Shown here: piece after piece, positions 1,713 to 64,000 of the stretch | Layout of the letters: each line of letters starts with the position of its first letter | Position numbering within the stretch: the first letter of the stretch is position 1 | From: Thiotrichales bacterium | Lineage (GTDB): Bacteria > Pseudomonadota > Gammaproteobacteria > Beggiatoales > Beggiatoaceae | Length of the DNA: 64,000 nt | Direction: 5' to 3' | Assembly (NCBI GenBank): GCA_016744475.1 | Contig: JADGEH010000003.1 | Coordinates: 1-64,000, forward strand | The notes under the pieces: generated by a model | Databases searched by the model: none | The model's input: only the letters and a program-made list of their open reading frames with translations | What the model was told of the DNA's origin: nothing | Translations under genes and position numbers: made by a program

Positions 1713-3565
1713 AAACAACCTCCCCTGAATTAATTGAAGACAACCCCGCTGCTCACGCCTTTGATGCCGCGCAATTTTTAAGCACTGCCCCTAGCAAGCC
1801 AGGGGTGTATTGCATGTATGAAGATCAGCGCGAGATTCTTTATGTGGGCAAAGCAAAGGATTTAAAAAAACGCTTAGCCAGTTATTTCCGCAGTGAACAG
1901 CAATTAGCCCCTAAAACCCGCGCCCTAGTCGCTCGCATTACACAGATTGAAGTGACCGTGACGCACACGGAAACCGAAGCGCTGATTCTCGAAAACACTT
2001 TAATCAAAAATCATTTGCCGCCTTACAACATCTTGCTGCGTGATGATAAAAGCTATCCCTACATTTATTTATCAGCCGATGATTTTCCACGCCTAAGCCT
2101 GCATCGCGGGGCTAAGAAGGCTAAAGGGCGGTATTTTGGCCCGTATCCCAGCGCTAAAGCCGTGCATCAAAGTCTTAATTTGCTGCAAAAATTATTTCCG
2201 GTGCGCCAATGCCGGGATAGTTTTTATCGCAATCGCTCGCGCCCTTGTTTGCAATACCAAATCAAGCGCTGCACAGCCCCTTGTGTGCAGTTGATTACGC
2301 CAGCCGCGTATGCCGAAGATGTGCAACACGCCACGCTGTTTTTACAAGGTAAAAGTCACAGTGTGATCAATCAGTTAGTGGAAAAAATGCAGGCGGCTGC
2401 GCAGGCTTTGGAGTATGAGCAAGCGGCTCGTTACCGTGATCAAATCAGCCATTTACGCCATCTGCAAGAACATCAATATGCTGATACAGATAGCCATCAA
2501 GACATTGATATTATTGCGTGTTTGACCCGTGACAATGTGGCGTGTGTGCAGGTGTTGAGTGTGCGAGATGGACGCTATTTAGGCAGCCGCGCTTATTTTC
2601 CTAAGCAAACGCAGGGCAATACGGAAGCTGAGATATTGATGGCTTTTTTGTCTCAATATTATCTGGGTAAAGAGCGAGGGTTGCCGCAAGAAATCATTGT
2701 GAATCAGGTGCTTGATGATACTACAGCGTTGCTTGAGGCAATTAAACTAGAGCATGGGCGCGGCGTGCGTTTGGATCACAAGGTGCGCGGTGCGCGAGCG
2801 CGTTGGTTGGACATGGCTGAAGACAATGTGAAGACCAGCTTGGAACAGCGTAAACCGACGCAATACCGTGAACGTTTGACGGTGCTGAGTGTGGCTTTGC
2901 AACGCGATACGCTGCCAGAGCGCATGGAGTGTTTTGACATCAGTCACATGCAGGGCGAAGCTACCGTGGCTTCTTGTGTGGTGTTTGATGCGGAGGGGCC
3001 GAATACTAGCCATTATCGACGTTTTAATATTAAGGGCATTACTGGCGGCGATGATTATGCCGCCATGAAACAAGCCTTGACGCGGCGTTATCAGAAGCTC
3101 AAAGACAATGAGGGCATCATGCCGGATATTTTATTCATCGACGGCGGTCAAGGGCAGGTGAGGCAAGCTTTGGAGGTCTTGGATGAATTGCAAATCCATG
3201 ATATTCAAGTGATTGGCGTAGCAAAAGGCAGCACGCGCAAGCCGGGATTAGAAACTTTAATTGTGCCCGATGTCGAAACCCCGCTGTATTTATCCAAAGA
3301 TTCTCCGGCTTTGCATTTGATTCAACATATCCGCGATGAATCGCATCGTTTTGCCATTACGGGGCATCGCCAGCGTCGAGCTAAAGCGCGTCGTATTTCG
3401 GTGTTGGAAGATATAGAAGGGATTGGTAGCAAACGCCGTCAGCAGTTAATCACGCATTTTGGCGGCTTGCAGGGGGTGCAGCGTGCGGGTGTCGAGGATT
3501 TAGCCCAAGTGCCGCATATTAGCCAAGCTTTAGCGCAGAAAATCTACGATGCTTTTCATCATTGA
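1709..3565 (+). CDS. uvrC: Excinuclease ABC subunit C
   Basis: UvrC makes both incisions around a lesion after UvrAB loading in nucleotide excision repair. The 618-residue product carries the N-terminal GIY-YIG nuclease domain (PGVYCMYED...ILYVGKAKDLKKR), a UvrB-interacting UVR motif (EKMQAAAQALEYEQAARYRD), the RNase H-like endonuclease region (ERMECFDISHMQGE, DILFIDGGQGQ) and C-terminal helix-hairpin-helix repeats (LEDIEGIGSKRRQQLITHFGG). The frame is open upstream to 1571 inside queG, but the ATG at 1709 overlaps the queG stop as ATGA and gives the family's normal length, so I take it as the start. Association with queG rather than uvrY/gacA is a local arrangement. Confidence 0.95.
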   Translation: MKTTSPELIEDNPAAHAFDAAQFLSTAPSKPGVYCMYEDQREILYVGKAKDLKKRLASYFRSEQQLAPKTRALVARITQIEVTVTHTETEALILENTLIKNHLPPYNILLRDDKSYPYIYLSADDFPRLSLHRGAKKAKGRYFGPYPSAKAVHQSLNLLQKLFPVRQCRDSFYRNRSRPCLQYQIKRCTAPCVQLITPAAYAEDVQHATLFLQGKSHSVINQLVEKMQAAAQALEYEQAARYRDQISHLRHLQEHQYADTDSHQDIDIIACLTRDNVACVQVLSVRDGRYLGSRAYFPKQTQGNTEAEILMAFLSQYYLGKERGLPQEIIVNQVLDDTTALLEAIKLEHGRGVRLDHKVRGARARWLDMAEDNVKTSLEQRKPTQYRERLTVLSVALQRDTLPERMECFDISHMQGEATVASCVVFDAEGPNTSHYRRFNIKGITGGDDYAAMKQALTRRYQKLKDNEGIMPDILFIDGGQGQVRQALEVLDELQIHDIQVIGVAKGSTRKPGLETLIVPDVETPLYLSKDSPALHLIQHIRDESHRFAITGHRQRRAKARRISVLEDIEGIGSKRRQQLITHFGGLQGVQRAGVEDLAQVPHISQALAQKIYDAFHH

Positions 3566-3812
3566 AGGGGGATACAAAAAGAAGAGAAAAGAGGAAGTCG
3601 GTACTCCGGGCGCGCCCAATCACCCGAAGTACCTAACCTCAGTAGTCTAGGTAGGAACAGTCCGCTGAGGCTGGCTTGCATAGAGCAAGCGGTGTGCCAA
3701 AAATGCTAAATGCTCGTCTATTATGCTGATGGCGGTGGCACAAGCGCTGAGGAGGGATGGTAAGATGTTGAATGGCAAAAGGTAGGAAGGATAAAAGGTA
3801 GGATGGGCAAAA

Positions 3813-3844
3813 GGTAGGATGGGCAAAGCGAAGCGTGCCCATCA
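3813..3844. repeat. REP-like inverted repeat, copy 1
   Basis: Imperfect palindrome GGTAGGATGGGCAAAGCG followed by AAGCGTGCCCATCA. The same unit occurs in reverse orientation at 3957-3987, about 110 bases away, so the pair could form a large stem. Part of the unit (AAAGGTAGGATGGGCA) is tandemly repeated just before it. Similar GTAGGATGGGCA palindromes are common extragenic repeats in Gammaproteobacteria. Confidence 0.7.
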
Positions 3845-3956
3845 AACACATCAAACCTATCGCCCCCCCGCCTATCACCATTCAAAATAAATGACTTTTT
3901 AAGTATTTGATATTCTAAGGCGTTTTAACGCATTTGCCCTGTTTACACCCATTTAA

Positions 3957-3987
3957 TGATGGGCACGCTTTGCTTTGCCCATCCTAC
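3957..3987. repeat. REP-like inverted repeat, copy 2 (opposite orientation)
   Basis: TGATGGGCACGCTTTGCTTT followed by GCCCATCCTAC: the reverse complement of the unit at 3813-3844, with two or three differences. It lies just upstream of the UPF0104 start and explains why that reading frame appears to begin 22 codons early. Confidence 0.7.
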
Positions 3988-4021
3988 AGAATTCCATTCC
4001 CCACCCTCACAGCGATCCACC

Positions 4022-5029
4022 ATGACATCACGCCTTTTATTGGTTAGCAGCTTTTTCAGCCTGGCTTTATTGGCTTGGCTTTTCTCACAACTTCACTGGC
4101 AAAGCTTTCTTAGCACGCTACAAGGCTTAGAGGTCACACTCTTGCCCGTTGTGGCTTTATGTGTGGTCAGCAATATCGCTTGGCGGGCTTTGCGTTGGAA
4201 TTTCGTCAGCACTGAATCTTTACGTCTGTATCCCGCTTTCTGGCAAGCCGCCAGCATCGGCTATTTGGGCAATGTGCTGTATCCCGCACGAGCGGGCGAA
4301 GTATTGCGCATGGTGGCATTGAGTTATTTTTCGCCCATCGCTGGAGGACATGCGATGAGCAGTGCAGTGCTAGATCGTATGCAGGACATGATGGCATTTG
4401 GATTTTTGCTGTTACTGGTGATAGCGCTACATGGCGAAATTATCGCAGGTGTCGATTTGCGCAACAGTGTCATGGTTTTGATGTTCATCGCCTTATTATG
4501 TTTAGGGCTGATCGTGCATTTCGCGGCCTATTTTCACCGCCGTCTACAAGGCTGGAACAGCCCTCATTTGTGGCGACAACGCTTAAGCCATCTACTGCAA
4601 CAGGCTTTTCAAGGCTTGCAGGCGACCCGCAAAAACGGACTGTTCTCCTTAACCCTGCTCATGAGCTTAATGGCCTTGGGTTTTGATGCTTTTTACAAAT
4701 GGTTAATGCTGCTGGCGTTCGGCTGGGATTTGCCGTATTTTGCAGGGCTTTTAACGGTAAGCTTTATTTTGCTCGGCAATAGTCTGCCGTCAGCCCCCGC
4801 TTATATTGGGGTTTATGAAGCCGCCTGTGTATTAGCGCTGAGCTTTTATGGCATTAGTAGCAGTGATGCATTGGCCTATGCTTTGGTGATTCATTTAACC
4901 GAAATATTAGTCATCGTCACCCAGGGCAGCATGGTGATGCTTTATAAAGGCTTGAGCTTGAACAGTATGCGGCAGAACAAACAGCCTCCAAGAAAAAACA
5001 CAGTACCTACTAAGGAATCAAGGACATGA
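4022..5029 (+). CDS. UPF0104 / LPG-synthase-TM (flippase-like) membrane protein
   Basis: A 335-residue polytopic membrane protein with about eight hydrophobic segments, matching the lysylphosphatidylglycerol-synthase transmembrane (UPF0104) family. Recognisable features are the R-W-R-A-L-R-W cluster after the second segment, the 'YLGNVLYPARAGEVLR' motif (about residues 79-94), and the late 'SLPSAPAYIGVYEA' motif. The family is thought to move or handle lipids in the inner membrane; the substrate here is unknown. The frame is open from 3956, but the first 22 codons lie in an extragenic repeat, so the ATG at 4022 before MTSRLLLV is preferred. The stop overlaps the prmB start as ATGA. Confidence 0.8.
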   Translation: MTSRLLLVSSFFSLALLAWLFSQLHWQSFLSTLQGLEVTLLPVVALCVVSNIAWRALRWNFVSTESLRLYPAFWQAASIGYLGNVLYPARAGEVLRMVALSYFSPIAGGHAMSSAVLDRMQDMMAFGFLLLLVIALHGEIIAGVDLRNSVMVLMFIALLCLGLIVHFAAYFHRRLQGWNSPHLWRQRLSHLLQQAFQGLQATRKNGLFSLTLLMSLMALGFDAFYKWLMLLAFGWDLPYFAGLLTVSFILLGNSLPSAPAYIGVYEAACVLALSFYGISSSDALAYALVIHLTEILVIVTQGSMVMLYKGLSLNSMRQNKQPPRKNTVPTKESRT

Positions 5030-52222: not shown

Positions 52223-53734
52223 ATGAACTCAGAATTGATGGCTTTTATCTTTTTGCTCATATTAGGCTACTTGCTTATTCGTTTAGCCCTGCTAGGGTTG
52301 AAACGTCTATATATGGCATTGCCCTTAGAATGGCAGCATGATTTCAATATTCTTCATGCACCACTCAATGCTTTAATCATTGTCATGGTGTTGTTGAGCG
52401 GGCAACAATCTTCTTTATTTTTGGATGTTTTACGCAGTGATATTTTAGAGAGAATCAATGAATTTTTATTATTCCTAAGTTTAAGCTGGTGTGCAATACG
52501 CTTTATGAGCTTTGCTCTATTTAATCTCTATTTCATACGCCACAAAAAACGCATTATCCCTAATATTGTGAGCTGGTTGGTTCGACAACTATGCTATTTA
52601 ACATTACTCATCCTGTACTTGCATTTAGAATACTATTTTGCCTTGGGTGATTTAATGGTCATGAGCTTTATATTGCTTGTGATTCTCAGCATTACTTTCC
52701 AGCGTCCATTAAATAATATATTTATTGATTTTTATGCTTCTTTTGCTCACGATTTTCAATATGGTGATTTCATTGAAATGGATGGCAAGCGAGGTATGGT
52801 GATAGAAAGTGAATGGCAACATCTCACCTTGTTGGATGAGGACGATCATCGTGTATTTTTACCTATAAAACGTTTATTAGATACACAGGTCAGTCAATTT
52901 AGAGAAGAAGCATCAGGCTATCGTTTGTCTTTAGCTTTTAATCTCAGTGGAGCATTACCGCCGAATAAAGTACGCGAGTTATTAATCAATACGGCATTAG
53001 AAGTCAATGGCATATTAAAAGACACGCCCCCTGATGCTTATTTAGACAGCAGTCAAGGAGATTTCAATCATTACACTTTGATTTGTCTTTGTAATGAAGC
53101 GCACAGCATTAAACAGATTAAGCATCGTATTTTTTCTCAAAGTTGGTATAAACTGCATCGAATGGGATTAACTTATCCCTTTGCACATCACCCGCCCACA
53201 TTGAGTGACAGGCACAGTCCACCATTACAGCAACATCATATTGCTCAATTACTCAGTGACACCGAGTTTTTCTCTCCTCTTAGTTCTAGCGAAATACAAC
53301 ACCTGGCTGAAACGGCTCAGCTTGAATTATATGGTCAAGGTGAGCGTTTATTTAATCAAGGAGAACCGGGGAGTTCTTTATATATTATCTTTTCTGGACG
53401 AGTGTCTATCCAAGTTAGCCAAGCGGCTTCACCTGACACAGAAGTTGAAATTAATCAATTAGAATCGGGCAGTGTGTTTGGTGAAATTTCTTTGCTCACG
53501 GGGGCTTCGCGTAGTGCTAATGTCTTGATAATGGAAGAAAGCTATCTTATTTGTGTTGAAAAACATTCATTTCAAACTATTCTTAGTCATAACCCCGCTA
53601 TTATTGAAGCGCTCACCGACATTATGGTTCAACGTCAAACTCATCTTAGCCAAATCGCCATGAATGAGTCTGCACAACAAACTGAACGTCGTCATCTACT
53701 CACCAGTATCCAAAATTTTTTCTCTGTTAAATAG
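52223..53734 (+). CDS. MscS-type channel with cyclic-nucleotide-binding domain
   Basis: A 503-residue inner-membrane channel. About five hydrophobic segments (around 5-25, 42-60, 78-103, 118-140 and 145-168) end in an MscS pore/beta-domain (FQYGDFIEMDGKRGMVIESE, DDHRVFLPIKRLLDTQ). After residue about 345 a cNMP-binding domain begins: 'LYGQGERLFNQGEPGSSLYI', 'FSGRVSIQVSQ' and 'GSVFGEISLLTGASRSANVL', the last matching the phosphate-binding cassette with Arg retained. This is the bacterial cyclic-nucleotide-gated (bCNG) layout, suggesting opening or desensitisation by cAMP or cGMP, or by tension. It is first in the run ending with the CHAT and exoprotein genes; the next ORF starts immediately after its stop. 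Confidence 0.88.
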   Translation: MNSELMAFIFLLILGYLLIRLALLGLKRLYMALPLEWQHDFNILHAPLNALIIVMVLLSGQQSSLFLDVLRSDILERINEFLLFLSLSWCAIRFMSFALFNLYFIRHKKRIIPNIVSWLVRQLCYLTLLILYLHLEYYFALGDLMVMSFILLVILSITFQRPLNNIFIDFYASFAHDFQYGDFIEMDGKRGMVIESEWQHLTLLDEDDHRVFLPIKRLLDTQVSQFREEASGYRLSLAFNLSGALPPNKVRELLINTALEVNGILKDTPPDAYLDSSQGDFNHYTLICLCNEAHSIKQIKHRIFSQSWYKLHRMGLTYPFAHHPPTLSDRHSPPLQQHHIAQLLSDTEFFSPLSSSEIQHLAETAQLELYGQGERLFNQGEPGSSLYIIFSGRVSIQVSQAASPDTEVEINQLESGSVFGEISLLTGASRSANVLIMEESYLICVEKHSFQTILSHNPAIIEALTDIMVQRQTHLSQIAMNESAQQTERRHLLTSIQNFFSVK

Positions 53735-57428: not shown

Positions 57429-57908
57429 ATGTTTAAGAATTTCTTTAGTAACACTTTATATATACAAGTGTGGACTCATCAAATCAAAGTGACCGTCATT
57501 GAAACGGGAGAAGTCTTTTCTGAAAGACCCTTAGTGGCTATTCAAGTCAATAATAAAGGTGTTAAGTCTATTGTTGCCATAGGTCATGCAGCCACAAAGA
57601 CTCAAAATGCAGAAGTGATTAATCCATTTGAACATCCCCGCCTGCTGCTGGCGGATTTTGTTGTTGGAGAAAAACTACTGCAATGGATATTTCATAAAAT
57701 ATACCAAAAAAAACCCTTTAAACCTGCACCTTGTGTTGTGATTCATCCTTTGGAAAAACTAGAAGGGGGATTAACGGATATTGAACGCCGTGCCTTTAAA
57801 GAACTGGCTTTGGGAGCGGGTGCTCAAGATGTAGTAGTTTATCAAGGTGCAGAATTATCTATCCAGAATTTTGATTTTAAAGCCTTAAAAAAACAAGAAG
57901 ACAAATAA
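57429..57908 (+). CDS. Free-standing MreB N-terminal-domain-like protein
   Basis: A 159-residue protein collinear with roughly the first 150 residues of MreB: 'LYIQVWTHQIKVTVIETGEV', 'AIGHAATKTQNAEVINPFEH', 'PRLLLADFVVGEKLLQWIFH', 'VVIHPLEKLEGGLTDIERRA' and 'ALGAGAQDVVVYQGAELS'. It stops before the domain II nucleotide-binding elements (phosphate 2, adenosine motifs), and ends in a Lys-rich tail. So it cannot be a complete actin-like ATPase. It may bind MreB or the cell envelope machinery and interfere with it or tether to it. Its neighbours are a secreted CHAT protein and an exoprotein. The next frame starts immediately after its stop. Confidence 0.7.
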   Translation: MFKNFFSNTLYIQVWTHQIKVTVIETGEVFSERPLVAIQVNNKGVKSIVAIGHAATKTQNAEVINPFEHPRLLLADFVVGEKLLQWIFHKIYQKKPFKPAPCVVIHPLEKLEGGLTDIERRAFKELALGAGAQDVVVYQGAELSIQNFDFKALKKQEDK

Positions 57909-60362: not shown

Positions 60363-63300
60363 TCAGTTAAATAGCTTGACTGAGAAAAATGAATCATCTT
60401 CCTCGGATTCTTTAATGGTGGATATATCAAATTTAGCTAAATATTCACCCAGTTGCTGAGTGCGTCGCTCTAAGACCGTATTCAACTCTCCAACCAAGCT
60501 GGGTTGTGCACTAAGAATAGGATCAAGCTGTTTTTTTGTGATTTCAAATAAAATAGTATTGGTCGTAGCGACAATCGTCGCGGTTCTGGGTATCTTTCTC
60601 ATTAAAGCAATTTCTCCAAAATAACACCCCGCGCCTAACTGTGCTAAATGTTGAGGTTCATCTTGATTCGGGCTTTTCACCCATACACCGACCACTCCTT
60701 GTGCGACTAAAAACATAGAATCGCCTTTATCTCCCTGGTAAAACACGGTTTCATTATTAGAAAAATGTAATGGAGATAAACTGTCACTGAGGCGCTGTCT
60801 CAGAGGTGTCGGTAAGGGTTCAAATAATTCAACTCTTTCTAAAATATCTTCCACTAATAAAGGCACACCTTCTTTTTTATCACTGATATTGCGAGTGAGT
60901 TGTACTTCTTGATGTGGCATCGCAGGAGGCATTCCGGCATACACTAAATGATGCCAAAGACGCACCCACACTTCTGAGCGAACCAGAAAACGGCGTGGAT
61001 ACTGATCGGAAAAATAAATCACTAAATACTCTGCTGAGCAATCAGTGAGATGGCGCAAAAGAACAGTGGGAGGTGGTTCTTTAAGCACATCATCATTTAC
61101 CGAGAGCATGGCCTCTTTCAGCACTTTTATGACTTTATTCGGAGGATGTTGTGGATGTACATGTACCCGGCAGACACTGCCATAGGCGTTAGTGGGTTCA
61201 TTAAAACTGACTAGAATAGCTTCTGCGATTTTAGTATTAGGAATACGCACTAAATTGTGTGCGCGGGTGCGAATACGAGTAGTACGCCAGTTCATATCCA
61301 CCACCTGACCTTCATCGTAATCTTCCATTTTAATCCAATCACCAACAGAAAAAGAACGTTCTAAATTTAGTGCAATTCCAGAGAAAATATGCGAAATATT
61401 CAATTGAATAGCCAAGCCAATAATCATCGCAATGACGCTAGAAGTGGCTAATAAGCCGGTCAGTTTTTGTTCAAAGACAAAGGCCACAACACCAAACAAG
61501 GCTAATAAGTAAATAATGAAAGCCGCAAATCGCCGCACCAAGGACGGAATATGACGACCTGTCTTATATTCTAAAGGATGCCAAATAAAATATTCCAAAC
61601 TTAAATTAATAAATAGCGCGGGTACAAACCACCATAACACATCAAACAGGGTTACAAAGGATTTAAGGTTTTCTGGGTGAATCCAATTTTTTAGCATATC
61701 CAATCCAACTGTTTCCAATGAAATGAGGATAAAGAAGCTGGATAATAAATAAACAAACCATAACAGGCGTGTTTGTTTTAAATAGGCTTGATGGCGCAGT
61801 AAAAAAGCAATAATTAATATAAAAACTGATGTCAGGGTGACTTCCAAAGCATAGGTATAAGGGAGTAACTGCCTTAAAGAAAATTCTATCTCATGAACCT
61901 GAATCTCTGCGGTAAAACGTGAATATTCTAACTCACTTCCTGTGCTACTCAATAAATCAGGATCACCCAAACTTTGTTTAGGTTTAGTATCTTGGTAGAA
62001 GTTCAATAAACGCACTTCCCAACCAGCGGCACTATTTAAGATTTTGGCATAACGCGCTGCTTGTTCTTCTTTATCCGGCTTTATTAAACCTAAGCCTACA
62101 ATATCAGTCACATAAATCAAGTTATTATGACTGAGTTGACGATGATGAAATTCAATGCTTAAACGACGTTTATGTAAATTTAGAAATCCTTTACTCAGTT
62201 CTGTTTGAAATTGACCATTAACATGGTAGCGCAAATATCTATACGACCCTTGGATTTTTTCTATATCAGGAGTGTCTAGTTTAATCGGTGCTGTTGCATT
62301 AATGAAGTGAACATCCTGTACATTAAAACCGGTTTTAAATCGAAACCAAATAAAGAAATCGACGTTATAGCTCAACGTTTTAATATCTAATTCGCTGATT
62401 TCGTTGACTTGAATACCTGTATACACCACATCTGTTTTATACATCAGTTGATCATCAACTTGCAGCACGGTGCCTGAAGCTAATGCTTGTTCTAGGTTAG
62501 CAATTTTACGCGCACTGCCCACCGCTTTTAACTGTGTTAATGAAGACACCAGGGTTTCCCCTTTTAAATTCCCCATTTGTATTGATTTTTTTGCATTACC
62601 ATCAGCATCAAAATAATTGAGTCCGGTGACACCTTCTATGGCTAATTCAGGTTGATTAAGTTGTTCTAACTCATGTTGAATAGCTTTGCGTTTTTGTGCT
62701 AATTCACTATCTCTGTGCTCAGAAAAACGGTTTTTTATGGCTGTCGTTAATACATGTGCGGCATCGTAAGCAAAGGCAGAAAACCAGCGGGGCTTTTGAC
62801 CATAAGTAGACAAGAATTTTTCATAAAAATGCTGTCCTTGATGATTTGTCGTATCAAAAATAAACGGGGTGGCAATGTATAATTGATCGGTGTAATAACC
62901 TGGATAATTTTGCTCATTCGGTAGCGCGACCAATGCACGACTAAAAGCCGGATTTGCAAAGCTCATCGGCACCAATACAGGATGGTCTATACCCGCATCA
63001 CGAATCGCTTTTAACCACTTCACACCATCTTCCCAATGACTTGATAATAAAATCAGCGTGCTTTGCCGTTGTTTTTTAAGTTGCTTTACAATGCGACGCA
63101 TTTGTAACGCCTGTATTTTATTATCCATCTTTATCTGCCAATGATGTGTGGTGCTTAAGCCAATACCATCACTGGTGTTTTTGAAGACATCGGCTAAATA
63201 TCGATTACGTGTATCTTGATAACTAATAATATTGACATTTTTTTCTTTAAGAACATGCTTTGCATACTGTGCCAGCGCACGCCCTTGAGTGAGTTCATTA

Positions 63301-63752
63301 AATACAGTGCGGAAATACCACGGATTATCTGCCGTAATCGCATTATCAGTCGCACTAGGCGTTAATGCGGGGATGCCATATTTGCGGTAAATCTCGCCTC
63401 CGGCTAAAGAACACATAGAGTTGCTATGTCCAATGACCGCTAAAGCTCGATTTTGTTCAACAATTTCTAATGCGCTTTGTTTGGCGTGATTAGGATCATT
63501 CTTGTCATCATAAACATCCAATCTCACTAAGTGTCCTTCTATTCCACCCTTTTCATTCAGCTCTGCTAAATACAACTCAACAGCCGCTTTTAATTGCTGA
63601 CCTTGTTCTTTATCCTCACCCGACAAAGGAGCGACTAAAGCAATATGTAGTTCTTTATCCTGGGGTAACTTTGAAAAATAATAAGCCACACCCAGAAAAC
63701 AAATAAGAAAAAGAACTAAGCTGATTAATTTAAGCACGGTTTCACGATTCAT
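60363..63752 (-). CDS. Multidomain receptor-channel: PBP, ligand-gated-channel-like domain, MscS pore and cNMP-binding domain
   Basis: A 1129-residue membrane protein. Order: N-terminal membrane helix (about 8-27); a type-I periplasmic binding domain of the branched-chain amino-acid kind (33 to about 400; 'LHIALVAPLSGEDKEQGQQL', 'AVIGHSNSMCSLAG'); a beta-rich segment 438-622 that reads like a pentameric ligand-gated channel extracellular domain ('TLSYNVDFFIWFRFK', 'NLHKRRLSIEFHHRQL', 'SHNNLIYVTD', then 'GWEVRLLNFY', 'EYSRFTAEIQV'); five hydrophobic segments (about 633-652, 663-682, 699-719, 740-760 and 767-795), the last being the MscS pore helix; the MscS beta-domain ('FSVGDWIKMEDYDEGQVVDM'); and a cNMP-binding domain (about 975-1100; 'GCYFGEIALMRKIPRTATIV'). 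Five helices put binding domains in the periplasm and cNMP domain in the cytoplasm. Confidence 0.85.
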   Translation of the reverse strand: MNRETVLKLISLVLFLICFLGVAYYFSKLPQDKELHIALVAPLSGEDKEQGQQLKAAVELYLAELNEKGGIEGHLVRLDVYDDKNDPNHAKQSALEIVEQNRALAVIGHSNSMCSLAGGEIYRKYGIPALTPSATDNAITADNPWYFRTVFNELTQGRALAQYAKHVLKEKNVNIISYQDTRNRYLADVFKNTSDGIGLSTTHHWQIKMDNKIQALQMRRIVKQLKKQRQSTLILLSSHWEDGVKWLKAIRDAGIDHPVLVPMSFANPAFSRALVALPNEQNYPGYYTDQLYIATPFIFDTTNHQGQHFYEKFLSTYGQKPRWFSAFAYDAAHVLTTAIKNRFSEHRDSELAQKRKAIQHELEQLNQPELAIEGVTGLNYFDADGNAKKSIQMGNLKGETLVSSLTQLKAVGSARKIANLEQALASGTVLQVDDQLMYKTDVVYTGIQVNEISELDIKTLSYNVDFFIWFRFKTGFNVQDVHFINATAPIKLDTPDIEKIQGSYRYLRYHVNGQFQTELSKGFLNLHKRRLSIEFHHRQLSHNNLIYVTDIVGLGLIKPDKEEQAARYAKILNSAAGWEVRLLNFYQDTKPKQSLGDPDLLSSTGSELEYSRFTAEIQVHEIEFSLRQLLPYTYALEVTLTSVFILIIAFLLRHQAYLKQTRLLWFVYLLSSFFILISLETVGLDMLKNWIHPENLKSFVTLFDVLWWFVPALFINLSLEYFIWHPLEYKTGRHIPSLVRRFAAFIIYLLALFGVVAFVFEQKLTGLLATSSVIAMIIGLAIQLNISHIFSGIALNLERSFSVGDWIKMEDYDEGQVVDMNWRTTRIRTRAHNLVRIPNTKIAEAILVSFNEPTNAYGSVCRVHVHPQHPPNKVIKVLKEAMLSVNDDVLKEPPPTVLLRHLTDCSAEYLVIYFSDQYPRRFLVRSEVWVRLWHHLVYAGMPPAMPHQEVQLTRNISDKKEGVPLLVEDILERVELFEPLPTPLRQRLSDSLSPLHFSNNETVFYQGDKGDSMFLVAQGVVGVWVKSPNQDEPQHLAQLGAGCYFGEIALMRKIPRTATIVATTNTILFEITKKQLDPILSAQPSLVGELNTVLERRTQQLGEYLAKFDISTIKESEEDDSFFSVKLFN

Positions 63753-63825
63753 ACTGATTTAACCCATGATGTTGTGTAGTCGCTGGCTAGAAATAGCCGT
63801 GGTTTTGGCGTTGATAAGCCCTTAA

Positions 63826-63984
63826 GAGCCTATACGAAAACGGGATAATCGGCTGCAAACCCGCCCTTTTGGCCAGGTTTTCCGCTTTTTTTCGTTAAAT
63901 AGCGGGCTATTCGCCTTAAAAAACCGAAAAATCTGCCTCAAAATGGCGAATTTTCGCTTCGATTCCTCATCTTCGTATAGGCTC
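63826..63984. mobile_element. MITE-like element, type A, copy A4
   Basis: 159 bases, perfect 13-bp ends GAGCCTATACGAA / TTCGTATAGGCTC, interior AAACGGGATAATCGGCTGCA, TTTTCCGCTTTTTTTCGTTA, AATAGCGGGCTATTCGCCTT and ACCGAAAAATCTGCCTC. Located upstream of the receptor-channel gene. Confidence 0.85.
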
Positions 63985-63987
63985 TAA

Positions 63988-64000
63988 GAGCCTATACGAA
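63988..64000. mobile_element. Start of a second type A element, cut by window end
   Basis: GAGCCTATACGAA, the 13-bp terminus of type A, three bases after the end of copy A4, running off the window. It suggests two adjacent elements. Confidence 0.6.

Follow-up and report, generated by a model that had tools for sequence, protein, structure and literature searches.

Our analysis points to a ligand-gated ion channel of a new architecture, encoded in a 64,000-nucleotide stretch of DNA from a Thiotrichales bacterium (GenBank assembly GCA_016744475.1, contig JADGEH010000003.1, positions 1 to 64,000; the whole stretch is here called the window). In this protein, the periplasmic half of a bacterial pentameric ligand-gated ion channel (pLGIC) bearing a periplasmic binding protein (PBP) is probably joined to an MscS/YnaI pore module. 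The gene, a minus-strand open reading frame (60363-63752; start codon ATG), encodes a predicted receptor-channel of 1129 amino acids (aa) that consists of a PBP type I (PBP-I) domain, a pLGIC extracellular domain (ECD), an MscS pore, and a cyclic-nucleotide-binding (CNB) domain. Profile comparisons and structural models together establish the order and identity of these four modules, the loss of a coupling loop from the ECD, the CNB cassettes, and conservation across phyla; from this anatomy we infer that both extracellular ligands and a second messenger control the pore. An earlier note on this DNA had assigned the same modules, and Pfam, AF2 with Foldseek, and HHalign bear out all of its domain assignments.

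The ECD (residues 437-622; 61887-62444, minus strand, as are all features of this gene) is the part on which this reading turns. The earlier note had likened residues 438-622 to a pLGIC ECD that lacks the Cys-loop cysteines, and these cysteines are indeed absent from the window protein. Structure prediction, set beforehand as the test that could overturn the assignment, returned a pLGIC ECD fold and no unrelated fold. The AF2 model of residues ~437-622 was built from MscS-type sequences only (alignment A3, 61 sequences, no pLGIC) and reached a pLDDT of 81 and a pTM of 0.76. Its best 50 Foldseek matches were all pLGICs or AChBP, including GLIC, the ELIC ECD, AChBP, GluCl, and GABA-A receptors, with E values of about 3e-9 to 2e-8 for GLIC, the ELIC ECD, AChBP, and GABA-A receptors. 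VIA structural realignment with ELIC5 gave a Z score of 16.0 and an rmsd of 2.7 A over 161 residues, and all 1000 VIA candidates scored a Z of at least 8.

Profile comparison agrees with the fold. The ECD profile of the MscS-type proteins aligned in HHalign with the ECD of PBP-fused pLGICs (PBP-pLGICs) at 100% (E 2e-63) and with PBP-less four-helix pLGICs at 98.9% (E 3.5e-17, 160 columns); the latter in turn aligned with canonical bacterial pLGICs at 98.6% (E 1e-15). In control comparisons, the PBP, CNB, and MscS profiles stayed at or below 0.4%. The ECD profile also finds plain ~370-aa proteins at an E value of about 1e-12, and L205, one of the four intermediates, finds chains of GLIC, ELIC, and the glycine receptor in the PDB with E values down to 5e-14. 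By fold and HHalign, the domain is the AChBP/GLIC-type beta-sandwich ligand-binding ECD that marks the pLGIC/Cys-loop superfamily, and the sequence and model comparisons thus show the MscS-type ECD to be homologous to pLGIC ECDs. Residues 438-622 have no Pfam match above cutoff, Neur_chan_LBD included; the lack of a Pfam or PDB sequence match may be the reason why the ECD had gone unannotated. In the ECD tree, the MscS-type domains form one clade relative to the PBP-pLGIC and canonical ECDs, with weak support (0.57).

The genome itself holds a paralogue with a different pore. L005, a protein of 770 aa, carries the same PBP and ECD on a genuine pLGIC pore: it matches NCBIfam TIGR00860 (LIC) at an E value of 4e-11 and, in its C-terminal part, chains of GABA-A beta and GLIC. 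The window ECD and the L005 ECD share 30% identity over 189 aligned columns (BLASTP, 101 bits, E 6e-32), compared with 22.7 bits for the best of 200 shuffled controls, and this pairwise match accords with the predicted fold and HHalign. Along PBP plus ECD, the two proteins are homologous at an E value of about 1e-103. The LLPYTYALEV stretch, which had earlier been described as M1-like, aligns with M1 of L005 (FSLRQLLPYTYAL / FILKNLLPVIFVV) and is followed by four more helices of the MscS/YnaI type, not by M2-M4. Three further full-length paralogues in the same genome (L002-L004) have an MscS pore and lack the CNB domain. At the L005 locus, a gene for an oligopeptide-type substrate-binding protein (3473-4873, minus strand; PBP type II [PBP-II] by eye) overlaps the PBP-pLGIC gene, and 11 other PBP-pLGIC loci are also accompanied by such an oligopeptide-type gene (PBP-II, by eye).

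Beyond the ECD, the window protein departs from pLGICs. Five transmembrane helices (residues 632-655, 658-688, 693-731, 737-759, and 764-798; 61359-61859) were delimited by AF2, in agreement with hydropathy and with the number given in the earlier note, and the last of them is the MscS pore helix according to the pore-helix consensus and the match to YnaI and MscS. They lead into the MscS beta-domain and a cytoplasmic alpha/beta domain (residues 799-955; 60888-61358), where MS_channel_2nd (PF00924) matches residues 786-844 at an E value of 3.5e-15 (56 bits, cutoff 20) and PF21082 stays below its cutoff (18.6 versus 21 bits). The channel part matches YnaI, MscS, and MscK in Foldseek (E 2e-13 to 1e-11), with YnaI as the best structural match. 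Beta-domain and pore helix place it in the MscS superfamily; the four-helix M1-M4 pore lined by M2 is not present.

The second departure concerns the Pro-loop P-x-D-x-Q in the Cys-loop region, the element that touches the M2-M3 linker in pLGICs. This motif is found in all 8 canonical pLGICs and in 15 of 18 PBP-pLGICs (its P and D columns are kept in all 18) but in none of 100 MscS-type proteins; in the window protein, the position reads LNLHKRR. The rest of the sandwich is strongly conserved (VVYTGI..NEI, DF.LWFR, FRH..L..NLIYV.D, GW, YSRFN). As judged from the alignments, the coupling loop is decayed or rebuilt at the very place where the helix that it would contact is missing. Because the motif is lost in all members, the classical pLGIC mode of action of the ECD on the pore cannot apply here. 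With neither the four-helix pore nor the Pro-loop present, the window protein is therefore not a pLGIC, though its ECD is homologous.

At the N terminus, a hydrophobic signal or anchor segment (residues 5-23 by hydropathy; 63684-63740) precedes the LivJ-like PBP-I domain (residues 35-397; 62562-63650). Peripla_BP_6 (PF13458) matches residues 35-388 at an E value of 5.8e-37, above its curated cutoff, and the closest solved relatives include LivJ/LBP and the 3ip5-3ipc substrate-binding protein, in keeping with the earlier likening of residues 33-400 to a leucine/isoleucine/valine-binding protein. Ser112 and Thr135 of the carboxylate site, a pair that we take to be carboxylate binding, are present, and Ser112 is conserved in 42 of 42 CNB-bearing and 42 of 52 CNB-less members. 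At the other end, the CNB domain (residues 976-1100; 60453-60827) matches cNMP_binding (PF00027) at residues 995-1081 (E 4e-19, above the curated cutoff), resembles the CNB domains of PKA, PKG, and GlxR in structure (Z 17-19), and has an intact phosphate-binding cassette, GEIALMRKIPRTAT. The cassette pattern was recovered in 42 of 46 CNB members by a search that covered residues beyond 700, and two of the other four visibly carry it but escaped the search because of that residue limit. The class III cyclase domain is matched 17 times in the genome, which is at most compatible with gating of the predicted channel by cyclic nucleotides.

The window protein has many relatives. Scanning 84,980 species genomes turned up 74 loci, 71 of which have one or more open frames of MscS architecture; the other three hold PBP-ECD only (L111 and L160, both cut at a contig end, and L148). 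After removal of duplicates, 100 distinct PBP-ECD-MscS proteins were left, 46 with and 54 without a CNB domain. The MscS-type loci come from relatives of Beggiatoa, Thioploca, and Thiomargarita, from Desulfobacterota (Desulfonema, Desulfoluna, and Desulfamplus), and from Rhodospirillales, Magnetospirillum, Magnetococcales, SAR324, and Leptospiraceae; the search for homologues with the same domain order found them in six bacterial groups. Within the source order, the ECD occurs in 31 of 43 genomes and 18 of 25 genera, with up to 16 matches per genome. The seed alignment behind this count (A2), from which the first-pass profile for choosing family members and ECD start points was also made, opens with F in its first row where the window protein has L; alignments A3 and A4 were drawn directly from DNA. 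The same domain order is present in contigs of named strains of Desulfoluna and Magnetospirillum moscoviense and in G040, a single-contig genome of 4.8 Mb, and the complete chromosome of Desulfonema magnum (NZ_CP061800.1; L152, with a homologue of 1148 aa) holds MscS-type members along with several shorter frames of PBP-pLGIC size. The domain stack given in the earlier note stands, but the protein is no lone oddity: it belongs to a large and partly paired gene family. The minimal form of the architecture is the 776-aa ECD-MscS-CNB protein of L210 (2422-4749, plus strand), which has no PBP; therefore, the ECD-pore unit stands alone. Truncated members with a short or missing MscS part (L069:6962-9466, L043:3122-5779, L065:3992-6109, and L079:3902-4666) are likely decaying copies.

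At 14 loci, the two kinds of gene occur in tandem: the CNB-less one comes first (5') and is followed directly, after 28 to 1352 nucleotides and on the same strand, by the CNB-bearing one, and the reverse order was never seen (0 of 14). L067 (2641-6180 and 6376-9375) is an example of such a pair. In the full-length tree, which covers a largely overlapping set of 14 tandem-pair loci, the CNB-bearing pair members fall into one clade (support, 0.953) with 2 unpaired proteins and the CNB-less members into its sister clade (support, 0.996) with 1 unpaired protein. The branching of the two clades is closely mirrored, the pattern expected of what would be an old duplicated subunit pair, and the tandem genes suggest that heteromeric channels are encoded in those species. 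The window gene falls outside both clades and has no adjoining partner gene, its other side being occupied by a DinG-like helicase gene (by eye); any partner in its own genome would be a dispersed CNB-less paralogue. In Desulfobacterota, the gene after the CNB-less channel at L131, L144, L161, L143, L166, L165, L132, L129, and L146 encodes a DASS anion symporter that bears a CNB domain at its own N terminus (checked with Pfam in L131), and several of these loci also have ABC_sub_bind, 2-hydroxyacid dehydrogenase, and HAD genes; no DASS neighbor was seen at the giant sulfur bacteria loci examined. Elsewhere in the window, AGAGCCTATACGAA motifs recur upstream of the gene at 63769-64000 and, by eye, form an inverted, palindrome-like pattern, and a 159-aa open reading frame (57429-57908, plus strand), the first 140 or so residues of which give an MreB/Mbl-like match (E 1e-10), sits directly between a TPR-CHAT gene and a TPS-secretion gene.

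Considering these data, we propose a model for the origin and gating of these channels. The periplasmic half of a bacterial PBP-pLGIC, comprising the solute-binding domain and the ECD, would have been fused to a five-helix MscS/YnaI-type pore module, which in about half of the family is followed by a CNB domain at the cytoplasmic end. The five helices fit a topology with PBP and ECD on the periplasmic side of the membrane and beta-domain and CNB domain on the cytosolic side. In this scenario, a small solute bound by the PBP would change the ECD ring. Since the P-x-D-x-Q loop that pushes the M2-M3 linker is gone, the movement would pass through the last ECD strand straight into TM1 and on to the MscS sensor-paddle helices, whose tilt would open or close the pore helix, and cAMP or cGMP at the CNB domain could bias the gate from inside. 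The tandem CNB-less and CNB-bearing genes of the relatives would probably build heteromers. A bolder version, which we advance only tentatively, is that these proteins form a widespread class of bacterial ionotropic receptors in which a PBP-driven ECD of the neurotransmitter-receptor type gates a nonpentameric MscS pore through a newly evolved coupling interface, cyclic nucleotides act as a second, internal gate, CNB-less and CNB-bearing subunits are obligate heteromers, and 5- and 7-fold symmetries are reconciled in an undescribed way.

Several observations weigh against the proposed ligand-gated channel. Compared with only the eight canonical ECDs, the ECD is matched weakly by HHalign (44 to 59%), and the A3 ECD profile alone matches no PDB chain at an E value of 1 or less; therefore, the sequence link depends on intermediates, namely, the PBP-less four-helix pLGICs, while the fold match does not. 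This weak direct comparison with a narrow canonical set, together with the missing Neur_chan_LBD match, is what could be said for residues 438-622 being a generic beta-sandwich linker unrelated to pLGICs. Such a reading is very improbable, being ruled out by a fold match at Z 16 whose listed matches are pLGICs and by the 98.9% HHalign match over 160 columns, far from its controls, and the pLGIC pore on the same-genome paralogue L005 argues against it as well. The many metagenome-assembled genomes among the sources might arouse suspicion of an assembly or gene-fusion artifact, but the complete D. magnum chromosome, the named strains, G040, and about 100 distinct proteins with the same order rule this out and leave it a negligible chance. 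At a pTM of 0.44, domain packing in the AF2 model of residues 401-1129 (729 residues; pLDDT 81.7) is not reliable. The acid position of the PBP, presumably the alpha-amine-binding Asp/Glu of LivJ-like proteins, is D or E in 16 of 18 PBP-pLGICs but mostly S, T, or A in the MscS-type proteins and M263 in the window protein, so that the site could be altered or degenerate, and a ligand other than a standard amino acid is therefore possible. Moreover, pLGIC ECDs form pentamers, whereas the MscS channels solved so far are heptamers, and with this mismatch the ECD may not assemble or work as it does in pLGICs.

The most serious rival takes up these objections: the ECD, a true pLGIC relative, would have turned into a passive spacer or assembly collar on a tension-gated or cyclic-nucleotide-modulated, bCNG-like MscS channel, with the PBP at most a weak modulator. 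The complete loss of the coupling loop from the MscS-type proteins and the altered amine-binding position of the PBP speak for this reading, and titles cited in PMC4560390 indicate that bCNG channels gate partly by tension in experiments. We nevertheless consider it unlikely, although worth serious attention, given that Ser112 is so well conserved in both CNB classes, that every member keeps the ECD, even PBP-less L210, and that as many as 16 ECD-bearing matches in one genome give the picture of a receptor family that is diversifying. We give little credence to the view that the protein is mainly a nutrient or osmolyte sensor, a regulated efflux valve rather than an electrical receptor, which would release or let in organic solutes when amino or organic acids are present outside the cell. 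EcMscS-type pores are wide and poorly selective, and the CNB-bearing DASS symporter beside the CNB-less gene in Desulfobacterota would suit such a valve, but this neighbor was not seen at the giant sulfur bacteria loci.

The pLGIC ECD and its four-helix pore are generally treated as an inseparable pair; here, the ECD is detached and set on an unrelated pore in many lineages, with its coupling loop lost. As natural chimeras, these proteins bear on which part of the ECD gating needs, on how a pentamer-type ring meets a heptamer-type pore, and on whether MscS channels can be true ligand receptors. They also suggest large repertoires of candidate chemical-sensing channels in giant sulfur bacteria and in some sulfate reducers.

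Among known systems, the PBP-I-fused bacterial pLGICs (ART-LGICs with PBP-I) were described by Tasneem et al. in 2004 (PMC549065), who state that bacterial forms preserve the core of ligand-binding domain and four transmembrane helices; a word search of that text found no mention of MscS or mechanosensitive channels. The PBP-pLGIC ECD-MscS architecture was likewise not found described in open-access full texts, subscription papers and preprints being outside the search. In the window protein, as in the PBP-I-fused pLGICs, a PBP-I domain immediately precedes the same ECD, and the homology extends over both domains, whereas those pLGICs have an M1-M4 pore and the P-x-D-x-Q loop where the MscS-type proteins have an MscS pore and have lost the loop. 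The PBP-pLGICs are themselves varied: proteins of ~1190 aa at L070:2981-6547, L076:2665-6231, and L096:611-4156 have an extra SBP_bac_1 domain (Pfam; PBP-II type) after M4 and hence two different solute-binding domains on one pLGIC, L096:8858-12469 is similar to them in length, and L085:1831-4704 (plus strand) has an N-terminal DUF697 domain. DeCLIC and other pLGICs with extra N-terminal domains (PMC9897478 and PMC12664993) also stack a periplasmic accessory domain on the ECD, but this domain is a different one and the pore is a pentameric pLGIC pore. With animal nicotinic and GABA-A receptors, the window protein has a homologous ECD fold in common (VIA Z of about 15) at about 7 to 12% identity, while it lacks the Cys-loop, uses a pore of another superfamily, and has the additional PBP and CNB domain. 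On the pore side, YnaI, a five-helix MscS-family channel, has the same number of helices but neither extracellular ligand-binding domains nor a CNB domain. The bCNG channels combine an MscS pore with a CNB domain (Caldwell et al. 2010, as cited in PMC4560390), and the window protein resembles them in its MscS pore and beta-domain with a C-terminal, cassette-bearing CNB domain; however, the plain MscS-CNB (bCNG-like) gene that the window also contains (52223-53734, plus strand; 503 aa) has neither PBP nor ECD, and about half of the PBP-ECD-MscS family lacks the CNB domain. Its pore makes the window protein an MscS-family channel and its CNB domain makes it bCNG-like, and its known modules, in a combination found nowhere described in the open-access literature, cross two channel superfamilies.

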